Assembly: GCF_031200575.1 (NCBI RefSeq)
Contig: NZ_CP133597.1
Location: forward strand, 1 to 64,000
DNA from: Ferroplasma sp.
Lineage (GTDB): Archaea > Thermoplasmatota > Thermoplasmata > Thermoplasmatales > Thermoplasmataceae
Direction of reading: 5' to 3'
DNA: 64,000 nt
Part shown: positions 1-8,106 of the stretch, piece by piece
Numbering within the stretch: position 1 is the stretch's first letter
How the letters are laid out: each line of letters starts with the position of its first letter
The notes under the pieces: generated by a model
What the model saw: the letters and a program-made list of their open reading frames with translations, nothing else
Told to the model about the DNA's origin: nothing
Database searches by the model: none
Program-made: the position numbers and the translations under genes

Positions 1-71
1 CCCAGCTCGAAACAGGAAAATAATTATAAATTCTATATTTTTTAATTTAGAATATGGTTAATCTAAAATTA

Positions 72-353
72 TTATAAATAAGTTTTATCTTCTATTAAAC
101 TTTGTAAAAGGAATTCATTATACCTAATTTCTCTAACAATATGGAAGTATTCTAAAGTTAAAGATATTCCTGAAACAATTACTATTATCAATCCTATGAA
201 TAGTATTAATGGAAAAACACCAATGTTGCTATTGTTGTATAAATACAAAAGTAGTAATGAACTCAATAAAATTGCAGTAACCAGATAAAATAAAATTTTT
301 TTCATTTTTTCCAAATTTGTGATTTGGGAATTAACAATTTTAGTTATATCCAT
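72..353 (-). CDS. Small two-helix membrane protein, function unknown
   Basis: This 93-residue protein has two hydrophobic segments (about residues 18-39 and 46-67) joined by a short turn, and a charged C-terminal tail of about 25 residues. I do not recognise a family. A TATA-like stretch lies roughly 25 nt upstream of the ATG at 353, which fits a leaderless transcript. It lies at the left edge of the accessory region, so it may belong to the integrated element. A holin-like or membrane-regulator role cannot be argued from the sequence. Confidence 0.5.
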   Translation of the reverse strand: MDITKIVNSQITNLEKMKKILFYLVTAILLSSLLLLYLYNNSNIGVFPLILFIGLIIVIVSGISLTLEYFHIVREIRYNEFLLQSLIEDKTYL

Positions 354-539
354 GGAATTATATTGATGTGAAATATATTAATATAACGTTAATATCCCAT
401 CGGTTTGATATGAAGTAGTCAATTGATATAAAATGTCAACCCATAGAATAAGATCTTTAATGACAGTATATAAGGAAGTCATAAAATTAGAAATAAGGCT
501 TTCCCACAAAGTATTTAAATAAATATGAATTGTCTACTT

Positions 540-1244
540 ATGACATTGCCGGTTAACTTTAACAAAAATTTAAGCATCCAGTCTTCCAGGAAAAATAATA
601 TTTCAATATCCTATTTCAGAGGAGAAGAACTGGAACAGATCTTTGATTATACAAAAAATAAGATCCTGAATAACAGGAACCATGAAGCACTTTACAGGAG
701 ATATTATTTTTTAATGAAAGCCCTCCTGCATACCGGTGCCAGGATAGAAGAGATTGTTCCATACCATCGGGATGAATACGTAGATAAGAAAGGGATTCAT
801 AAAGAAATAACCTCTCCTGGCTTAAGGCCAATAGACATTAACCTGGATATTGGTACTGTAACATTGCCTACACTCAAAAAGAAAACAATGAATGGTAAGC
901 TTCCACAGAGAGTGCTGCCTATATCGCAGGATTTTAAGAATGAGTACATGTCATATGCCATGGCCATGCATATAGACATTAAATCAAAGAATCCGTTGTT
1001 TCCGATTACCAGAAAAGCAGTAAATAAGTTTATGGGGAAAATGCAGAGTGAGTTGGGATTTGGAATACACCCGCACAAGTTCAGGCATACTTTTGCCGTG
1101 ACTGCTGTGCTTTCCGGTGTGCCATTAAATGTACTCCAGGAATGGATGGCACACTCAAGCATATTTATAACAAGTGTTTATACACAGATTACGGGCATTG
1201 ATACTACAAGGTACATGGGCCAGATGGATTATCAGAATTTATGA
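540..1244 (+). CDS. Short tyrosine recombinase (phage integrase family)
   Basis: The product is a site-specific recombinase. Numbered from the ATG at 525, the catalytic set is visible: Arg73 in a TGAR motif, His184 and Arg187 in HPHKFR, His210 in WMAH and the Tyr219 nucleophile in SVYTQ. The N-terminal DNA-binding part is only about 60 residues, shorter than a usual core-binding domain, and total length is about 235-239 aa. A TATA-like TATTTAAA at 512-519 puts transcription start near 540, so the ATG at 540 (leaderless) is preferred to the ATG at 525. It lies some 5 kb from a second, unrelated-looking recombinase. It could be a resident integrase of a nested element. Confidence 0.8.
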   Translation: MTLPVNFNKNLSIQSSRKNNISISYFRGEELEQIFDYTKNKILNNRNHEALYRRYYFLMKALLHTGARIEEIVPYHRDEYVDKKGIHKEITSPGLRPIDINLDIGTVTLPTLKKKTMNGKLPQRVLPISQDFKNEYMSYAMAMHIDIKSKNPLFPITRKAVNKFMGKMQSELGFGIHPHKFRHTFAVTAVLSGVPLNVLQEWMAHSSIFITSVYTQITGIDTTRYMGQMDYQNL

Positions 1245-1304
1245 AAAATGCGAGAGATTGGTTGAAGGATAGATGTAAAATAAATAAAAAAAGAGGGAAT
1301 TAAA

Positions 1305-1541
1305 ATGTATGATGACGATGATGATGAATGGAATAATGAATTGGATGAGAGAGAAATAGAATATGATAATGAGCTATGCCCCGATTGTAAAAGTGAAATA
1401 GAATTTAAGATTCAGATTCATAGAGGCTTCTCAGATTGGGAACATTTAATATGCCCGGTATGTGAACATGATTTTGGAGAAAGAAGAGTTGATGAAGGAT
1501 ACGAATCAAGAATAATAAAAAGAGGTACTAAACAGGAATAA
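1305..1541 (+). CDS. Small acidic zinc-ribbon protein
   Basis: A 78-residue protein begins with a run of aspartates and has two CxxC knuckles (CPDC near residue 26 and CPVC near residue 49), enough for one zinc ribbon. The charged N-terminus would suit a protein-protein contact. It ends 14 nt before the ATG of the ASCH gene on the same strand, so the two are probably co-transcribed. GAGGGAATTAAA in front of the ATG gives a weak ribosome-binding signal. The function is unknown. Small zinc ribbons of this sort are frequent on archaeal mobile elements. Confidence 0.65.
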   Translation: MYDDDDDEWNNELDEREIEYDNELCPDCKSEIEFKIQIHRGFSDWEHLICPVCEHDFGERRVDEGYESRIIKRGTKQE

Positions 1542-1555
1542 TTATAGTGAAACGC

Positions 1556-1912
1556 ATGAAGGTCTTAATGTCTATAAAACCGGAATATGTTAATAGAATA
1601 TTATCCGGGCAAAAGAAATACGAGTTCAGGAGGAAGATCTGGAAAAATAAAATAACGGATGTCCTGGTATATTCCACTTCTCCAATCCAGAGAATAACAA
1701 TGGCCTTCAAAGTTAAGAATATCATTTCAGCTCCACCGCAGCTGCTATGGGATAGATACCACGAATATAGCGGAATTTCCAAAGATAAGTTCATTAAATA
1801 TTTTAAGAATTGTGATACTGGATATGCAATAGAAATAGGCAATATTACGAATTTGGAACCTTACAAATTGAATATAAGGCCACCACAATCATATATGTAT
1901 ATAGATGACTGA
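1556..1912 (+). CDS. ASCH-domain (PUA-like fold) protein
   Basis: The product opens with VLMSIKPEYVNRILSG followed by KKYEFRR, the typical first strand-helix and basic motif of the ASCH family, a PUA-like fold found in RNA-binding and coactivator-related proteins and on mobile elements. At about 119 residues it is one domain with no fusion. A GTG at 1547 is in frame, but the ATG at 1556 matches where family members usually begin. It sits directly behind the zinc-ribbon gene and 84 nt before a TIR-domain gene. An RNA-binding or RNA-cleaving role would be an inference from the fold only. Confidence 0.7.
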   Translation: MKVLMSIKPEYVNRILSGQKKYEFRRKIWKNKITDVLVYSTSPIQRITMAFKVKNIISAPPQLLWDRYHEYSGISKDKFIKYFKNCDTGYAIEIGNITNLEPYKLNIRPPQSYMYIDD

Positions 1913-1996
1913 CTTGGTTCTTAACCACTAAACTCTTAGGTGAAACAACAAGTTAAAATCTAATAATAAGATATAACTTTCACTTAGAGTGGAATA

Positions 1997-2671
1997 ATGA
2001 TGGAAGATACACAAGGCTCGGAGAGTTTCGATATATTCGTTAGTCACAGTCATAAAGATTATGAAAAAGTCAATTTGTATTTAGAATATGTAAATGATAA
2101 AAAAACAGGTCTGGGGAAAATTTTTCCTGTTTTTATAGCCCATAAGGATATAACACCAACTAAACCATGGGAAGAAGAAATAATTAAGGCCCTAAAACAT
2201 ACCAAAATATTTATAGCTTATTTAACACCCAACTTCAAAAAATCTGAGTGGTGTGGCCAGGAATCTGGAATCGCATACGCGAATGACCAATTTATAATTC
2301 CATTGATGGATGGGTCTAAACCTTATGGATTTCTAGGAAAATACCAGGGCATGCCAATACCTTCAAATCATAGACACAGCAGATCAGAAACACCAACAAC
2401 CACTGGATTAAAGGAATTTGCAGTGTCAATTATTAAATCAGCATATGATGACAAGAGATGCAGTAGCATGGTAAGAAATAAGATTTTTGGGCATCTAAAT
2501 GACATTTCATCATTTAGCCAGACTGATTTAGTGTTTTCATTATTAGAACATTTCAAACCATTTACAGAAGAGGAAAAAACTACCATACTCAAAGCATACG
2601 AAGGAAATAAACAGATTAACCAGGCAGGATCAGCAGATTCGTTAATCATGGAACTAAAGCAAAATGAGTGA
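1997..2671 (+). CDS. TIR-domain protein, likely NAD-cleaving defence effector
   Basis: Residues 10-110 carry the TIR landmarks: FDIFVSHSHKD (first strand and BB region), AHKDI, PWEEEI and SEWCGQESG. The last places a glutamate (about residue 89) in the WCxxE position that is the catalytic Glu of enzymatic TIR domains, which hydrolyse or cyclise NAD. The C-terminal half (about 115 residues) matches nothing I know and may be a sensing or oligomerisation part. A stand-alone TIR beside a methylase and nuclease on an integrated element fits antiviral defence, but no known partner (for example a ThsA-like SIR2 protein) is visible. TATA-like AAGATATAAC lies about 25 nt before the start. Confidence 0.8.
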   Translation: MMEDTQGSESFDIFVSHSHKDYEKVNLYLEYVNDKKTGLGKIFPVFIAHKDITPTKPWEEEIIKALKHTKIFIAYLTPNFKKSEWCGQESGIAYANDQFIIPLMDGSKPYGFLGKYQGMPIPSNHRHSRSETPTTTGLKEFAVSIIKSAYDDKRCSSMVRNKIFGHLNDISSFSQTDLVFSLLEHFKPFTEEEKTTILKAYEGNKQINQAGSADSLIMELKQNE

Positions 2672-2820
2672 ATGCTATAAATTAACAATCATACTAATTA
2701 ACTATGCTTTATTGCATTCTATCGAAAATTGCACAAAATACGAATAAAAATTATAAGATATACTTATAAAGTATCTTTATATAATCTAAGAATAATACAG
2801 AAAGAACTAAAGGTGATAAA

Positions 2821-4176
2821 TTGCTCTGTGATGAAAAAGCAGTTCTTATAAAAAGGCGTACGTTAGGTGAACACCTTACATCTGTAAATATATTTAAAGA
2901 ATATATACTGCCCAAAATTAGGGATAAAATAAATAATTATACATGGGTTGATTTATTCGCTGGTGAAGGCAATTTAATATTACCTATACTGGATTTGGTG
3001 CCTGAAAATAAAAGAATTGAATTCTTTCATCATAACATATTTCTTTTTGAGGTACAAAAAGAAATGGTTGAAAGAGCTATAAAAAATGCAGAATCGTATG
3101 GAATACCAAAATCAATAGCGGAAACAAATATTCAGATAAGAGATACGCTTAAAGAGTATCCTGTACTGAATGTTAAAAAGCCAATTTACCACATAACAAA
3201 TCCGCCATATCTATATATAGGGTATATAGCTAAACATAAGGAAAATTTTAATCAGCTTGATTATTTTGCCAGAAGCTATAAAGGTTTACAAGATCTATAT
3301 CAAGTTGCATTGATGAATGATTTACAGAATGGAATAAATCAAATGGTTTATATAATTCCTTCAAATTTTTTATTTGGTGATTCTGTTTCTAATTTAATCA
3401 GGATGAGTTTTTTACCTTTGTATAAAATAGATAATGCTATTATATTTGAGAAAAAGATCTTTGAAAATACAGGTGTAAATGTAGTAATATGTTTCTTTGA
3501 AAGAACAAATATAAGAAATAGTACTATAAAATTTAAAGCTACAAAAATAAATGGAGAAATAAAAGAAAGAGAATATGTATTATCGCAGAAGAATAATTAT
3601 AGGGCAGGTAGTGAATTTAATGATTATATTAAGGCGCAAAAAAAGAATATGATTAAAATATCCTATTATTTAACTAAAAAGGAGATTGATAATAACAAAG
3701 GGGAAAATAAGGTACTACTATTAAATTCTAAAGAATATAAAAATGGAGAATACACAAAGAAAACATTTTTTGTAAATGATAAGCTTTATGAAAAAATAAT
3801 AAAAAATCCATTATTTATAAGAACTGTTGACACTGGAAGCGAAAATGGAAAATCCGGATTATATTATATAAAAGAAACTTTTGGCACTGATGGGATATTT
3901 GTGGATGGAAATACATATAGAACAAATCCAATACAAGTATTTATTGAGCCATATCTATCTTCGGAGCAAATGAAACAATTGCAATTAACCTTCAACCAAA
4001 AGCTAAACGAACTCAGGGATATAACGGATAGTGAATTTATGACTACATATAAGTATAGTAATAATGGAAAATATACAAGAAAATATCTTGGATTGCTACA
4101 GGCAAAGAAATTGCTTGAAGTAATAGATATAAAAATTAAAATTCCTGAACAAACTCATCAAACAAAATTGCTGTAA
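2821..4176 (+). CDS. DNA adenine-N6 methyltransferase of a type II R-M system
   Basis: The 451-aa product has the S-adenosylmethionine loop VDLFAGEGN (about residues 43-51) and the catalytic NPPY motif (about residue 129), in the order of N6-adenine methylases. The remaining 300 residues would include the target-recognition region. Translation probably starts at TTG 2821, preceded by GGTGAT. Its 3' end overlaps by 41 bp, tail to tail, with the predicted endonuclease on the other strand, the usual arrangement of a restriction-modification pair. It should methylate and so protect the site cut by that enzyme. The recognition sequence cannot be read from the protein. Confidence 0.82.
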   Translation: MLCDEKAVLIKRRTLGEHLTSVNIFKEYILPKIRDKINNYTWVDLFAGEGNLILPILDLVPENKRIEFFHHNIFLFEVQKEMVERAIKNAESYGIPKSIAETNIQIRDTLKEYPVLNVKKPIYHITNPPYLYIGYIAKHKENFNQLDYFARSYKGLQDLYQVALMNDLQNGINQMVYIIPSNFLFGDSVSNLIRMSFLPLYKIDNAIIFEKKIFENTGVNVVICFFERTNIRNSTIKFKATKINGEIKEREYVLSQKNNYRAGSEFNDYIKAQKKNMIKISYYLTKKEIDNNKGENKVLLLNSKEYKNGEYTKKTFFVNDKLYEKIIKNPLFIRTVDTGSENGKSGLYYIKETFGTDGIFVDGNTYRTNPIQVFIEPYLSSEQMKQLQLTFNQKLNELRDITDSEFMTTYKYSNNGKYTRKYLGLLQAKKLLEVIDIKIKIPEQTHQTKLL

Positions 4177-4939
4177 TTATATTTTTACCTTTTCTCTCAT
4201 CTATTTTTCTAATGTAATTCCTGTCAAACCAAACTATCCCATCAAGAATTGCAAAAGAGCATATATTAGGCTCTCTACTATCATTTAAAACATCCAATGC
4301 AACGTTCAGTTGATTAGTTTGTGCACCTCCAGAATCGGTGATAAACTTCGCTTCGCCAAAACAAAATCTCTTACCCTTCCTGAATAAAACGTCCAGCCCC
4401 TTCTTAGTATCTAACAACTTAATGTCAAGTTCGTCAGTAACATATTTCTTAAGTGTTGAGTCGGAACCTTGTAAAAACACCAAATCTTCCTCTCTATAAT
4501 ATTTAAAGTCAGTATAACTTATAAATTTATATCTCTCCTGCACCCACTTCTTAAAAGAATTTCCCATTTGTCTAGTTGCAGATTTTGGTTTACGCATTTC
4601 TTTCAATAAAGAATCCCAATCCATAGATGTTATAGTTTCTCCAAGGCGCTTGATTGTGTCAGGATTATTTTCTATAAGATCACGTCTATATCTGAGCATA
4701 CTTATATAAGGGTCGTCTATTGGGAATCTCTCAAGGCCTAGGAGCTTCTTTATTAACTCTATGTACGACTTAGTTTCTCGAGATGTGTCATAAGCCTTCT
4801 TTATATTATTAATATCTTCAAGCTTTACAGTCCTTTCCTTATTCGATTGGGAAGGATATATAGAAGATAATTTATCAAGGTACTTTTCTCTATTAGCAAT
4901 ATCTTTGCTTTTCTTTACCCAATCTTCCATATTCATCAT
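4136..4939 (-). CDS. Type II restriction endonuclease, PD-(D/E)XK fold
   Basis: A nuclease active site is visible late in this 267-aa protein: Asp183 in KGLDVLF, then Glu196 and Lys198 in FGEAKFI, followed by a TDSGGAQTNQ segment. This D-x(12)-E-x-K pattern, with a GG-Q after it, is typical of several type II enzymes. The first 170 residues are charged and helical and carry no recognisable domain. It is downstream of the winged-helix regulator (20-nt gap, same strand), so the regulator gene leads the operon. Its 3' end overlaps the methylase gene. I call it a restriction enzyme from motif plus pairing; the exact family is not identified. Confidence 0.75.
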   Translation of the reverse strand: MMNMEDWVKKSKDIANREKYLDKLSSIYPSQSNKERTVKLEDINNIKKAYDTSRETKSYIELIKKLLGLERFPIDDPYISMLRYRRDLIENNPDTIKRLGETITSMDWDSLLKEMRKPKSATRQMGNSFKKWVQERYKFISYTDFKYYREEDLVFLQGSDSTLKKYVTDELDIKLLDTKKGLDVLFRKGKRFCFGEAKFITDSGGAQTNQLNVALDVLNDSREPNICSFAILDGIVWFDRNYIRKIDERKGKNIITAILFDEFVQEF

Positions 4940-4959
4940 CCTATAGTTTATTAACTTCT

Positions 4960-5526
4960 TTAGTTTTCATTAGACTTCACCTTGTTTATATTTCCCCTAT
5001 CTCTCTGAATCTGGATCATAGCCTGGACATCCGGCAGAGACCAGGCATATTTTGTATGCACACAATTGTATGTTTGATCTACCTCGCACCAGAGCCGTAA
5101 AATATTGTTTCCGTTTAATTTTACATAGACAAAAACTACTCTGTCATCTCCTTTGGCATTGTAATTAAACTCATGAATTGCAACATGGTCATCTAAAACG
5201 TTGAGATGAGTTAAAGCTGAGAGATTTTTGAATTGGTCTTCATAATTTGGAGGAAGGGTATAACTGGAAACTTCTTCGGCTCTTCTTAATCCTTCGGCTA
5301 TGCGTTTGCCTTTGCCAGTTAGCTGGATAGCGTATATGCGACGACCAAGCCTCCGTTCTTCAATTGATATTAATCCGCTGTTTTCCAAAAGTGGTAATAA
5401 TTTATCAATGGTGTGCATGGTACTTACTTGTTGTAAATCTGTTTTTTTTGAACTACCATTGTCTAATAAATAGAGAAGAATAGTAATAGCGTATTTATGA
5501 GACAATATATCTTCATCTTTATCCAT
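4960..5526 (-). CDS. Winged-helix transcriptional regulator leading the endonuclease operon
   Basis: Residues 8-75 form a winged-helix: a helix rich in Leu and Ile, a putative recognition helix (DLQQVSTMHTIDKLLPLLEN) and a wing with ERRLGRRIYAIQLT. The C-terminal 110 residues are unassigned. TATA-like TTTATATG (minus strand, 5550-5557) is about 26 nt from the ATG, so the mRNA is probably leaderless. The 15-nt element AAATGTCATATTTGA lies between TATA box and start and recurs in the divergent promoter, so autoregulation plus repression of the divergent operon is the simplest model. The role resembles controller proteins of restriction systems, though it is not a classical C protein. Confidence 0.75.
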   Translation of the reverse strand: MDKDEDILSHKYAITILLYLLDNGSSKKTDLQQVSTMHTIDKLLPLLENSGLISIEERRLGRRIYAIQLTGKGKRIAEGLRRAEEVSSYTLPPNYEDQFKNLSALTHLNVLDDHVAIHEFNYNAKGDDRVVFVYVKLNGNNILRLWCEVDQTYNCVHTKYAWSLPDVQAMIQIQRDRGNINKVKSNEN

Positions 5527-5527
5527 T

Positions 5528-5542
5528 TCAAATATGACATTT
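5528..5542 (-). promoter_or_regulatory. Operator-like element, copy 1 (regulator/endonuclease promoter)
   Basis: On the minus strand this reads AAATGTCATATTTGA and occupies the 15 nt just upstream of the regulator ATG, downstream of its TATA box (5550-5557). An identical 15-mer sits in the divergent promoter at the equivalent place. Overlap with the likely transcription start suggests repression. Confidence 0.6.
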
Positions 5543-5599
5543 TAAATAACATATAAACTATATTATATAATCAATAGTCGATATTGACAATTGATAATA

Positions 5600-5607
5600 T
5601 TTATATA
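5600..5607 (+). promoter_or_regulatory. TATA box of the AbrB/zinc-ribbon/recombinase operon
   Basis: TTTATATA at this place predicts transcription start near 5630, about 16 nt before the ATG at 5646. The start falls inside the palindromic operator-like element. Confidence 0.5.
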
Positions 5608-5615
5608 CAACTAAC

Positions 5616-5632
5616 AAATGTCATATTTGACA
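5616..5632 (+). promoter_or_regulatory. Operator-like element, copy 2 (palindromic, AbrB operon promoter)
   Basis: AAATGTCATATTTGA (5616-5630) repeats copy 1 exactly, and with the next two bases it forms an inverted repeat TGTCA-TATT-TGACA (5619-5632). It covers the predicted transcription start. A dimeric winged-helix protein, such as the one encoded next door, or the AbrB-like protein could bind it. Confidence 0.6.
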
Positions 5633-5645
5633 TTAGATGATAAAT

Positions 5646-5777
5646 ATGAAAACTGTAGCAAAAGTAGGCAAGTCTGGGCGTGCCCAGATACCGAATGAGA
5701 TTCGCGTGAAAATGGGAATTTGTGCCGGAGACAGACTCGTAATAGAGATTATAGAGGTAATAAAAAATGACGCTTAA
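5646..5777 (+). CDS. AbrB/SpoVT-type small DNA-binding protein
   Basis: A 43-residue protein with the swapped-hairpin AbrB signature: KVGKSGRAQIPNEIRVKMGI then GDRLVIEII. Proteins of this type act as dimeric regulators or antitoxins. The ATG at 5646 is used here; an in-frame ATG at 5637 would add three residues. It overlaps the following zinc-ribbon gene by 11 nt, and that gene in turn overlaps the recombinase start, so all three should be translated from one message. It may repress its own promoter through the palindrome at 5619-5632. No toxin-like partner is evident. Confidence 0.75.
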   Translation: MKTVAKVGKSGRAQIPNEIRVKMGICAGDRLVIEIIEVIKNDA

Positions 5778-5952
5778 TGAAGTTAGAATTTTTGATGATT
5801 CTGGCATGCTGGTTTTGCCTGATGATGTGATTGAGGTATGGAAGGAAGAAGAACACATTGTTAAGTGCAGCCATTGCGGATATAGCTACAGGTCCAGGGC
5901 AATATACAAAATAAGGCATACATGCCCAAAGTGTAAAGAGGTAATATATTGA
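5767..5952 (+). CDS. Small zinc-ribbon protein in the recombinase operon
   Basis: This 61-residue protein has an acidic N-terminal half and a C-terminal zinc ribbon (CSHCGYSYRSRA, then CPKC). The start lies inside the end of the AbrB-like gene, and its TGA stop shares an A with the recombinase ATG (TGATG), a sign of translational coupling. The first half (NEVRIFDDSGMLVLPDDVIEV) looks AbrB-tail-like, so it may once have been part of the upstream gene or may pair with its product. A recombination directionality or accessory role is possible but only suggested by position. Confidence 0.65.
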   Translation: MTLNEVRIFDDSGMLVLPDDVIEVWKEEEHIVKCSHCGYSYRSRAIYKIRHTCPKCKEVIY

Positions 5953-6839
5953 TGGACGAAAAGGAACTAAGGGATTTTAAGAATTTTATGATTGATGAAA
6001 TGCGTTTATCACCCTCCACTGTGAAGGACACATTGAGAAGATTGCCATATATTGAAAATAAATCAAAATCAATGGAGAGGGATGATTTGCAGGAACTGGT
6101 GCGCATAGAATGGAACACCAAGAGCAATAAGACTGCAAATGAGTACATTAAAATAATCAACAGGTGGCTCAGATTCAAGAATGAAAAGCCCCTGAAATAT
6201 TTTAAGGAATACGAATCATTTACAGTAAAGATCTGCACACCGGATGCCAAGGAAAAACTTTTAATTGCAGCTTCCAGGCAGGGACCAAGGGAGAAAGCCA
6301 TATTTTATTTATTGTTTGGCACCGGAGTAAGGCTCGGGGAAGCCGTGAACTTAAAGCTCCAGAATATCAAAAATGACAGGATCTTTGTAACAGGTAAAGG
6401 CCAGAAGGAGAGGGAAATATTCCTTCCTTCAGAATCCAGAAATGCGCTGGATGAATACCTTTTAGTAAGGACTCCTGGGAAAACAGCCTCGGATAAGGAT
6501 TTTCTGTTTACGACAAAAGTGGGAAAGAGAATGTCATACGATTATTTCCGGAATTTATGCAAATTCGTTGCGATGAATGCCGGGATAAAATTCCATCCCC
6601 ACATGGCCAGGCACACATATGCCACGGAGCTTTTGTTGGCTGGAATGGATGTGGCCTTCGTGTCAAAGCTGCTGGGGCACGAAAATCTTTCAGCGACCCA
6701 AAAATACCTGCACCCGAGCCAGCAGGAGGCGATTTACCAGGCTTCAAAAATAAATTTATTTGAAAATCAACATAAAAATAAGTACCAAAATCATAATGAT
6801 TTAGACCATAAGGATAGGTTGGGATTTGGACCCAAGTAG
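5952..6839 (+). CDS. XerA-like tyrosine recombinase, gene end inside tRNA-Cys
   Basis: The 295-aa enzyme has a full catalytic set (numbered from the alternative TTG start at 5949): Arg128 in GTGVRLGEA, Lys150 in the beta-hairpin VTGKGQ, His218 and Arg221 in HPHMARH, His244 in LLGHE and Tyr253 in QKYLH. An N-terminal SAM-like core-binding domain covers residues 1-90. Length fits archaeal XerA and element integrases. The ATG at 5952 overlaps the preceding stop. The last nine codons (from about 6811) lie within the tRNA-Cys gene on the other strand, so the coding end and attachment site coincide. This favours an element integrase over a chromosomal dimer resolvase. Confidence 0.85.
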   Translation: MDEKELRDFKNFMIDEMRLSPSTVKDTLRRLPYIENKSKSMERDDLQELVRIEWNTKSNKTANEYIKIINRWLRFKNEKPLKYFKEYESFTVKICTPDAKEKLLIAASRQGPREKAIFYLLFGTGVRLGEAVNLKLQNIKNDRIFVTGKGQKEREIFLPSESRNALDEYLLVRTPGKTASDKDFLFTTKVGKRMSYDYFRNLCKFVAMNAGIKFHPHMARHTYATELLLAGMDVAFVSKLLGHENLSATQKYLHPSQQEAIYQASKINLFENQHKNKYQNHNDLDHKDRLGFGPK

Positions 6840-6882
6840 ATGAGATCTGCAGTCTCACGCATAGCTTCTCTGCCACCTATCC
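6811..6882 (-). tRNA. tRNA-Cys (GCA), atypical, putative attachment site
   Basis: Read on the minus strand, a cloverleaf is clear: acceptor GGATAGG/CCTATCC with U73, anticodon stem TGAGA/TCTCA around loop CTGCAGA (anticodon GCA), and T stem TTGGG/CCCAA. U73 and GCA are cysteine identity elements. Oddities: the T loop is TCCAAAT, with C in place of the near-invariant U55; the D stem has only three pairs; and the D loop (GAGAAGCTA) has C where G19 is expected. Its AU-rich acceptor differs from the GC-rich acceptors of the His, Lys and Met tRNAs in this window. It may be a diverged functional tRNA, a relic, or a copy modified by integration. CCA is not encoded. Confidence 0.8.
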
Positions 6883-7128
6883 GCTTGTATGTATTGCAAA
6901 TCTATATTTATTTTTTTATGCAGTAAGTCACTTCTGTAACCTGATAGGATAGAAACGGTTATAATTACAAATTTATATTTCATTTTATAAATTTGAACAT
7001 ATTCTATATTACATGACATAGTATGACAATATTATATAAGTATATCATAATTATTTAATATGTTTGAAGAAATGTTTATATACTCAATGATAATTGTTTC
7101 TTATGGATTTATATGTGGGTATTTTGAG

Positions 7129-8106
7129 ATGGCAGTTCTGGGAGTTGATCTGGGATATGGAGACACAAAACTGGTAACAGAGAACAATAAAAAGAGTAAG
7201 TTCCCATCAAGGTGGTCTCCTGCAGAGGCCAGAGATTGGGGGCTTGGAGGGAATGTTCCTGTACTTTCGATCAAGGGTGGTGATTCTTTCATGTTTGGAG
7301 ATGATGCAACAGGATCAAATATAAGAGAGCCACAGGGAGATGGCAGGCTTACCGATCCCAATGCTATGCAGTTACTTGCGGGTGCATTATGGAAAAGTGG
7401 CATAGGAAAAAAACCCAGAATGCCGATATAGTTCTGTCAAGCGGAACCCAGCTTGGAAGTTTTGACAAAGAAGTAAAAGAAGCGTCCAAACCGCTGGAAG
7501 GTATGGAGATAGAGCTACAGGATGCCTCTGGTGACAAGCAAAAGTTCAAAATATCAAAATTGGTTATGAGACCACAAGGTGTTGGTGCGGTCATATATTT
7601 GCTTAATCAGGGCCTTATAAAGAAACAATATGGAAATGCAGTGATAATAGATATAGGATACAAAACAACAGATATTTTAACAATAAATCTGAGGAATCTG
7701 GAACCCATTACTGCAGAATCTTTCAGCATAGAGGCAGGGGGTAGGAGACGTTGTGTCCGGAATGAGCAAGTCTATCAGCAGGGAAACTGGTTTTGTAGTG
7801 TCAGCTGATGTTGCCCGTGATGCTATAGGAGAGAAGGTAACTTTCAAACAGCAGGAAATAGGCGGAAGTGAGGTGTCTGGGCCGTTACTGGATAGTCTGG
7901 CACAGAAGATTGTTGATGAGATGAGAGAAAATTTAAGAGACAACCTTGAAAGGATAACATCACTGATTCCTGTTGGGGGTGTTTCTATACTTATAGGAGA
8001 CAAACTTGAGCAACTGGCTCCTGGATATCTTGTCAAGGTTCCACCTGAAGACATGCAATTTGCAAATGTTCTTGGTTATTCAATTGCCGCCTCGGAAAAT
8101 AAATAA
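7129..8106 (+). pseudogene. Actin/ParM-like ATPase (Ta0583 family), split by two frameshifts
   Basis: Three consecutive reading frames together give one protein of about 325 residues that lines up with Thermoplasma acidophilum Ta0583 as I remember it: GVDLGYGDTK (phosphate 1), SSGTQLGSFD, VIIDIGYKTTDI (phosphate 2), ETGFVV, ITSLIPVGG (adenosine motif) and a final QFANVLGYS. The frame moves by -1 in an A7 run (7407-7413) and back by +1 in a G5 run (7737-7741). The start at 7129 matches the family; an in-frame ATG at 7060 would add a hydrophobic leader absent from relatives. Ta0583 forms filaments and hydrolyses nucleotide, with an unclear cell role. The breaks may be real, sequence errors, or slippage at A-AAA-AAA. 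Confidence 0.85.

Follow-up and report, generated by a model that had tools for sequence, protein, structure and literature searches.

Locus-specific operators point to a candidate repressor switch in tRNA-integrated elements of an archaeal order

The 15-nt word AAATGTCATATTTGA, which occurs twice between two divergent operons of a Ferroplasma chromosome, probably marks where a repressor docks to keep an integrated archaeal mobile element quiet. We put at roughly 0.6 the probability that this word is the operator of a divergent repressor switch, similar to those of lambda and phiH, that controls the recombinase of the element. An operator common to the two divergent promoters, as the initial annotation of this DNA had suggested, is the best reading of the word, and the arrangement with repeated sites in the gap is kept in related elements, each with an operator sequence of its own.

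Results

The window, meaning the whole 64,000-nt stretch that was analysed, starts with the first base of a genome assembled as one contig of 1,859,113 bases; an open reading frame of 348 codons spans the join of its two ends, as expected of a circular chromosome. The features on which the argument rests are as follows.

2821-4176, plus strand: N6-adenine DNA methyltransferase (PF02384, E=4.3e-07), convergent with the nuclease, with tails overlapping by 41 nt; probable cognate methylase
4136-4939, minus strand: Tsp45I-type restriction endonuclease (PF06300, E=4.3e-57), 20 nt after the wHTH gene and probably on the same transcript; cargo
4960-5526, minus strand: wHTH (winged-helix) regulator, 188 aa, with a MarR/PadR/HxlR-like N-terminal DNA-binding domain and a C-terminal domain with DDH...WCE.D.S..C.H; proposed repressor
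5526-5539, minus strand: O1, predicted operator over the wHTH start, TGTCATATTTGAAA, one mismatch from TGTCAN4TGACA; overlaps copy 1 of the 15-nt word
5550-5557, minus strand: TATA-like box of the wHTH promoter, TTTATATG, assigned from sequence
5576-5589, plus strand: O2, candidate middle operator, AGTCGATATTGACA, two mismatches; weak by sequence, supported by position
5600-5607, plus strand: TATA-like box of the recombinase-side promoter, TTTATATA, within a 21-nt block (5592-5612) that is identical in tandem element A
5619-5632, plus strand: O3, perfect palindromic predicted operator, TGTCATATTTGACA, covering the expected transcription start of the AbrB/zinc-ribbon/recombinase operon; overlaps copy 2
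5637-5777, plus strand: AbrB/MazE-like DNA-binding protein, 46 aa, encoded first in the recombinase-side operon; a second regulator, similar to Cro or Xis, is proposed
5767-5952, plus strand: zinc-ribbon protein, 61 aa
5949-6839, plus strand: tyrosine recombinase/integrase, the 3' end of which runs into tRNA-Cys
6811-6824, plus strand: att core, AGGATAGGTTGGGA, 14 nt, at the tRNA-Cys 3' end; elsewhere in the genome it is found exactly only at 1810703-1810716 and 1840135-1840148
6811-6882, minus strand: tRNA-Cys(GCA), the integration target
Element A, 1810703-1840148 of the same contig (G000:C1): 29.4 kb, delimited by att cores
Element B, G000:C1:1840135-1859113 joined to window positions 1-6824: 25.8 kb, delimited by att cores

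The copies of the 15-nt word are exact matches (5528-5542 on the minus strand and 5616-5630 on the plus strand), and they are its only exact copies in the genome. No longer exact repeat is present in the 119-bp gap, and repeats of at least 15 nt arose in 0.085% of 20,000 dinucleotide shuffles of the gap (P = 0.00085). Copy 2 had been described as a full inverted repeat, and O3 is indeed a perfect palindrome, TGTCA-N4-TGACA; copy 1 is nearly palindromic too, since O1, read on the minus strand from 5539 to 5526, has a single mismatch and abuts the wHTH ATG. A third site, O2, had been overlooked, and lies exactly 43 bp from O3, centre to centre. In the window, the sequence similarity of O2 alone does not rise above background and it is position that supports this site; the window's own three-site score is marginal (p 0.06), and the strength of the case in this gap comes from the O1-O3 pair. 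The exact 15-mer was also considered as the mark of a genome-wide regulon and was rejected, given only two exact copies and near matches at background. With the motif relaxed, near matches to TGTCAN4TGACA in the window number 55 versus 31.5 in shuffles, and are scattered. Few near-perfect operators occur elsewhere in element B, so the switch seems to be local rather than a form of whole-element control.

The two TATA octamers are where the initial annotation had placed them, and each copy of the word lies about 20-30 nt downstream of its own TATA box, over the expected transcription start, the starts being predicted. The gap measures 119 bp as annotated; the AbrB-like open reading frame may, however, begin at 5637 rather than 5646, giving a gap of 110 nt that falls within the 97-122 nt usual for relatives. 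Divergent promoters with common operator sequences over both predicted start regions are what a repressor switch of a temperate element would have.

The att core is present in three exact copies, all on the same strand (starts 1810703, 1840135 and 6811), and these delimit two tandem elements, A and B. An integrated location with att repeats and a recombinase is likewise as expected for a temperate switch. Element B carries an MCM helicase and ends with the wHTH gene (minus), the gap, and the AbrB, zinc-ribbon and recombinase genes (plus); element A ends with the same module, with an RHH-like gene replacing AbrB. The A and B recombinases are 89% identical, and the wHTH proteins are 44% identical in the DNA-binding domain versus 85% in the C-terminal part. 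At the nucleotide level, A and B are about 85% identical at the recombinase end, about 72% identical in the 3' part of the wHTH gene, and about 33-55% identical over the DNA-binding domain, gap and partner gene, with the identical 21-nt TATA block as the exception. This is the mosaic expected if a specificity cassette has been exchanged.

Several other features of this region were recorded. The recombinase frame of element A does not stop at the att core but extends into element B (350 aa, against 296). Within element B are a second, distantly related tyrosine recombinase (window 525-1244), a TIR-domain protein that is a possible defence gene (PF13676, window 1997-2671), an ASCH-domain open reading frame (1547-1912) just ahead of it, and a 1602-aa secreted-looking protein with PKD repeats (L091:8686-13494); the gene behind wHTH in locus L150 also encodes PKD/Ig domains. 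Just outside the element, at window positions 7060-8106, an actin-like/ParM-type coding region appears to be split into three overlapping frames, judged by eye from the list of open reading frames, which may reflect frameshifts or assembly errors.

The N-terminal domain of the wHTH protein appears to belong to the MarR/PadR/HxlR-like winged-helix superfamily: the family profile matched MarR-type PDB chains (best E 8e-07) and several members have HTH_34/HxlR matches. On its own, the window protein matches nothing in Pfam below 0.01, and its single-sequence AlphaFold model (pLDDT 46) was too poor for a fold search. The C-terminal domain (window 4963-5260, minus strand) has a conserved DDH...RLWCE.D.S..C.H..YA motif, in which C, C and H are invariant, and matches no Pfam family; the motif looks metal-binding. 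This domain is swapped between different DNA-binding domains, and could sense a signal. We found no wHTH protein in viral contigs, plasmids and phages, and tblastn against a phage collection returned nothing at E<=0.01, a result that speaks against a close relationship to Rep of the haloviruses phiCh1/phiH. The nearest named relative of the recombinase is from Acidiplasma aeolicum (74%). We rejected this enzyme as the core XerA, as a more distant recombinase (~30% identity) occurs across the relatives searched and few carry a close one.

Our search for the module in the archaeal order gave wHTH profile matches in 75 of 117 genomes; about 30 matches are full length, and many of the weaker ones are partial. 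Thirty related loci were analysed for gap, operators and neighbours. Most of the gaps to the divergent gene measure 97-122 nt, and 22 loci have a recombinase on the divergent side; in five of the other eight, less than 3.1 kb of contig is available there. The divergent partner resembles AbrB in about half of the set; the other loci have an RHH-like partner, a small one of an uncharacterised type, or none. The core of the module is the wHTH gene, the gap, a small DNA-binding gene and the recombinase. In one genome (G044), the module is found twice, apparently identical in scores and spacing and 17.5 kb apart (G044:C1:157449-160087, covered by locus L085, and 174970-177608); this is perhaps a tandem duplication with a single predicted specificity.

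The initial annotation had suggested searching related elements for the same motif in both promoters. The layout with paired or triple sites is kept, but the exact word differs between loci. The repeated site is, for example, ATTCCATATATGGAAT in L070, TTTACATTAATGTAAA in L072, L133 and L139, TTGGTA-N4-TTACCAA in L132 and L150, GGCATTATTGCC in L147 and CACTTTTGACTTT in L076. We scored each gap for three similar sites, one confined to the end next to wHTH, one to the middle and one to the end next to the partner, and compared the scores with dinucleotide shuffles. The 30 loci scored above shuffles (mean z 2.44, Fisher p 1.4e-13), whereas 13 unrelated divergent gaps did not (mean z 0.09, Fisher p 0.71; Mann-Whitney versus modules, p 5e-5). 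Regions from the same locus match each other better than regions exchanged between loci (z 8.9 for O2-O3, 6.8 for O1-O3 and 3.8 for O1-O2); since exchange abolishes the match, the repeats are not shared promoter elements. In the clear cases among relatives, 42-44 bp separate the centres of O2 and O3, and the distance in the window is 43 bp. One comparison is a possible natural specificity change: L132/L150 and L147 have related DNA-binding domains that differ in the helix region (KSHQVLDN versus KSHHILDK), and their half-sites are TTGGTA and TTGGCA, respectively, with the change in both halves of O2 and O3.

Loci with more similar wHTH DNA-binding domains have more similar operators (Mantel r 0.30, p 0.0005); the C-terminal domain shows no such correlation (r 0.07, p 0.17). 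For example, L132 and L150 have the same operator with 73% identity in the DNA-binding domain and 26% in the C-terminal domain, whereas L132 and L131 have different operators with 57% and 86%, respectively. By this correlation, operator specificity differs between related elements along with the repressor DNA-binding domain, as it would in a family of temperate elements. Linkage alone can make a neighbouring DNA-binding domain and gap co-vary, and accounts for part of the correlation; that separate sites of one locus change in concert is, we suggest, stronger evidence that the sites work. Repeats are stronger in loci with an AbrB partner (mean z 3.5, n=15) than in the others (mean z 1.37, n=15), which are still above controls (p 0.004). 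Among the loci with AbrB, AbrB and the wHTH DNA-binding domain correlate with operator similarity to the same degree (0.51 and 0.52), such that correlation does not tell the two apart there. Both proteins binding the same sites in a lambda-like switch would yield this pattern, which is not proof of it.

The genes behind wHTH differ between loci. They encode a UvrD-family helicase (L080), a GHKL ATPase matching restriction-enzyme models (L132), a Z1-domain protein (L142) or a PDC-M30A candidate defence protein (L131), and in many related loci a product with no recognised identity; a PD-(D/E)XK protein is encoded slightly further from wHTH in L139, and element A has a type IIG restriction enzyme two genes beyond wHTH. 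A Tsp45I match was found in none of the related downstream genes scanned. In element B, the endonuclease and adjacent DNA methylase probably make up a Tsp45I-type restriction-modification (R-M) system.

Discussion

We propose that the palindrome TGTCA-N4-TGACA is the target of the wHTH protein, which would bind there probably as a dimer. On O3 the protein would cover the start of the AbrB/zinc-ribbon/recombinase operon and block it, such that the element stays integrated, and on O1 it would cover its own start, limiting its own level and that of its operon. O2 lies upstream of the rightward TATA box and, at 43 bp, on the same helical face as O3, and may provide cooperative binding or bias between the promoters. 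Loss of wHTH would allow AbrB and the recombinase to be made. AbrB, as the first product of the repressed operon and in the position of Cro, is a likely counter-regulator that would act on the same or overlapping sites and tip the switch. Genes behind wHTH, here the Tsp45I-type nuclease, would be expressed with the repressor in the integrated state. The operator sequence, the wHTH DNA-binding domain and the partner gene may together form an exchangeable specificity cassette, and different elements would then carry different, non-cross-reacting switches.

An alternative that we consider less likely is that the AbrB-like partner is the main binder, autoregulating its own operon and repressing wHTH in the manner of an antitoxin. 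AbrB/MazE folds bind palindromes as dimers, the repeats are strongest in AbrB loci, and L072 and L075 have similar AbrB proteins and an operator score of 12/14 while their wHTH DNA-binding domains are only 36% identical. Nonetheless, the repeats still exceed controls in the roughly half of loci in which the partner is RHH-like or absent, and L086, which has no AbrB, keeps a 24-nt operator block of L076, the wHTH DNA-binding domains of the two being 70% identical. On these comparisons, wHTH seems likelier than AbrB to be the binder. It is far less probable that the repeats are arm-type sites for the recombinase or an excisionase, and so belong to the architecture of recombination rather than to transcription control. 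The repeats are located in the integrase module of the element, and some excisionases double as repressors; however, about 1.2 kb separates the repeats from the att core, the sites track the wHTH DNA-binding domain, and the repeats of A and B differ despite recombinases that are 89% identical and a common att core. Chance similarity of AT-rich promoter DNA seems more improbable still: base composition and the window's own three-site p of only 0.06 would allow it, but the exact 15-nt repeat is rare in shuffles and the family-wide excess is accompanied by flat negative controls.

The initial annotation had also suggested that the shared word coordinates cutting with mobility. The family offers no support for this, as wHTH goes with the recombinase while the gene behind it varies between loci. 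Given the variable gene behind wHTH and the lack of Tsp45I matches in scanned relatives, we regard the nuclease as cargo of the repressor-side operon; wHTH, kept with the recombinase across loci, belongs to the recombinase module. It is accordingly very doubtful that wHTH is a C protein timing the Tsp45I-type nuclease against its methylase. The nuclease follows wHTH by 20 nt and its expression is probably under O1, but related loci have wHTH with other genes downstream in place of this nuclease, the methylase is convergent and outside the gap, and what the module keeps is the recombinase. No locus in the sample had wHTH and the nuclease with the recombinase module lost. We therefore rejected wHTH as a type II R-M C protein: in those systems, as here, a gene for an HTH regulator precedes the nuclease gene, whereas the family-wide link of wHTH is to the recombinase.

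The proposed switch has features in common with several known systems. In haloviruses phiH1 and phiCh1, winged-helix or repressor genes lie back-to-back with a lytic gene (Rep with T4 or ORF49) under operator-based repression, and for phiH, immunity linked to the repressor is covered in a haloarchaeal virus review (PMC4284463). The archaeal divergent gap and winged-helix repressor (phiCh1 Rep) are shared with the module described here; mutually exclusive transcripts, as well as phiH immunity, are on record for the haloviruses (PMC4284463). Hosts and genes are different, however, phiH is extrachromosomal, and here the divergent operon encodes AbrB, a zinc ribbon and a recombinase in a large family with locus-specific operators. 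In SSV1, sites for the repressor F55 over starts or BRE hold the integrase operon down (PMC5569661, PMC8371274). This is likewise an integrated archaeal virus with start-site operators repressing an integrase operon, but F55 is an RHH protein acting at tandem repeats at several promoters, not a wHTH protein with a divergent pair. The similarity to lambda cI-Cro, and to heteroimmunity among lambda, 434 and P22, includes divergent promoters, several related operators, a second small DNA-binding protein, cargo behind the repressor (rexAB behind cI) and a specificity cassette exchanged between related elements; the promoters here are archaeal, the proteins are non-homologous, the site spacing is about 43 bp, and one control gap was found in the element. 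As with heteroimmune prophages, A and B have a similar recombinase and differ in DNA-binding domain, operators and partner gene. No description of a wHTH/AbrB/recombinase switch was found in the literature searched, and according to a 2021 review of archaeal tyrosine recombinases, no immunity system of the lambda type had been reported for mobile elements of archaea (PMC8371274). Cuniculiplasma, a member of the same order, has genomic islands that are described as having restriction systems and tRNA sites (PMC5155288).

More tentatively, we suggest an archaeal counterpart of phage heteroimmunity, in which tRNA-integrated elements of this order swap repressor DNA-binding domain, operators and partner gene as an immunity cassette, such that elements of different specificity may stack at a single tRNA gene, like A and B here, while newcomers of the same specificity would be held off. 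Many pairs of related elements, including tandem A and B, have different predicted specificities, making archaeal immunity groups directly testable, and the G044 pair would provide a test case against strict immunity. The slot behind the repressor also stands out as one that collects restriction genes and others resembling defence genes. About thirty related elements appear to have this switch, each with a private operator word, much like the separate immunity types of bacterial viruses.
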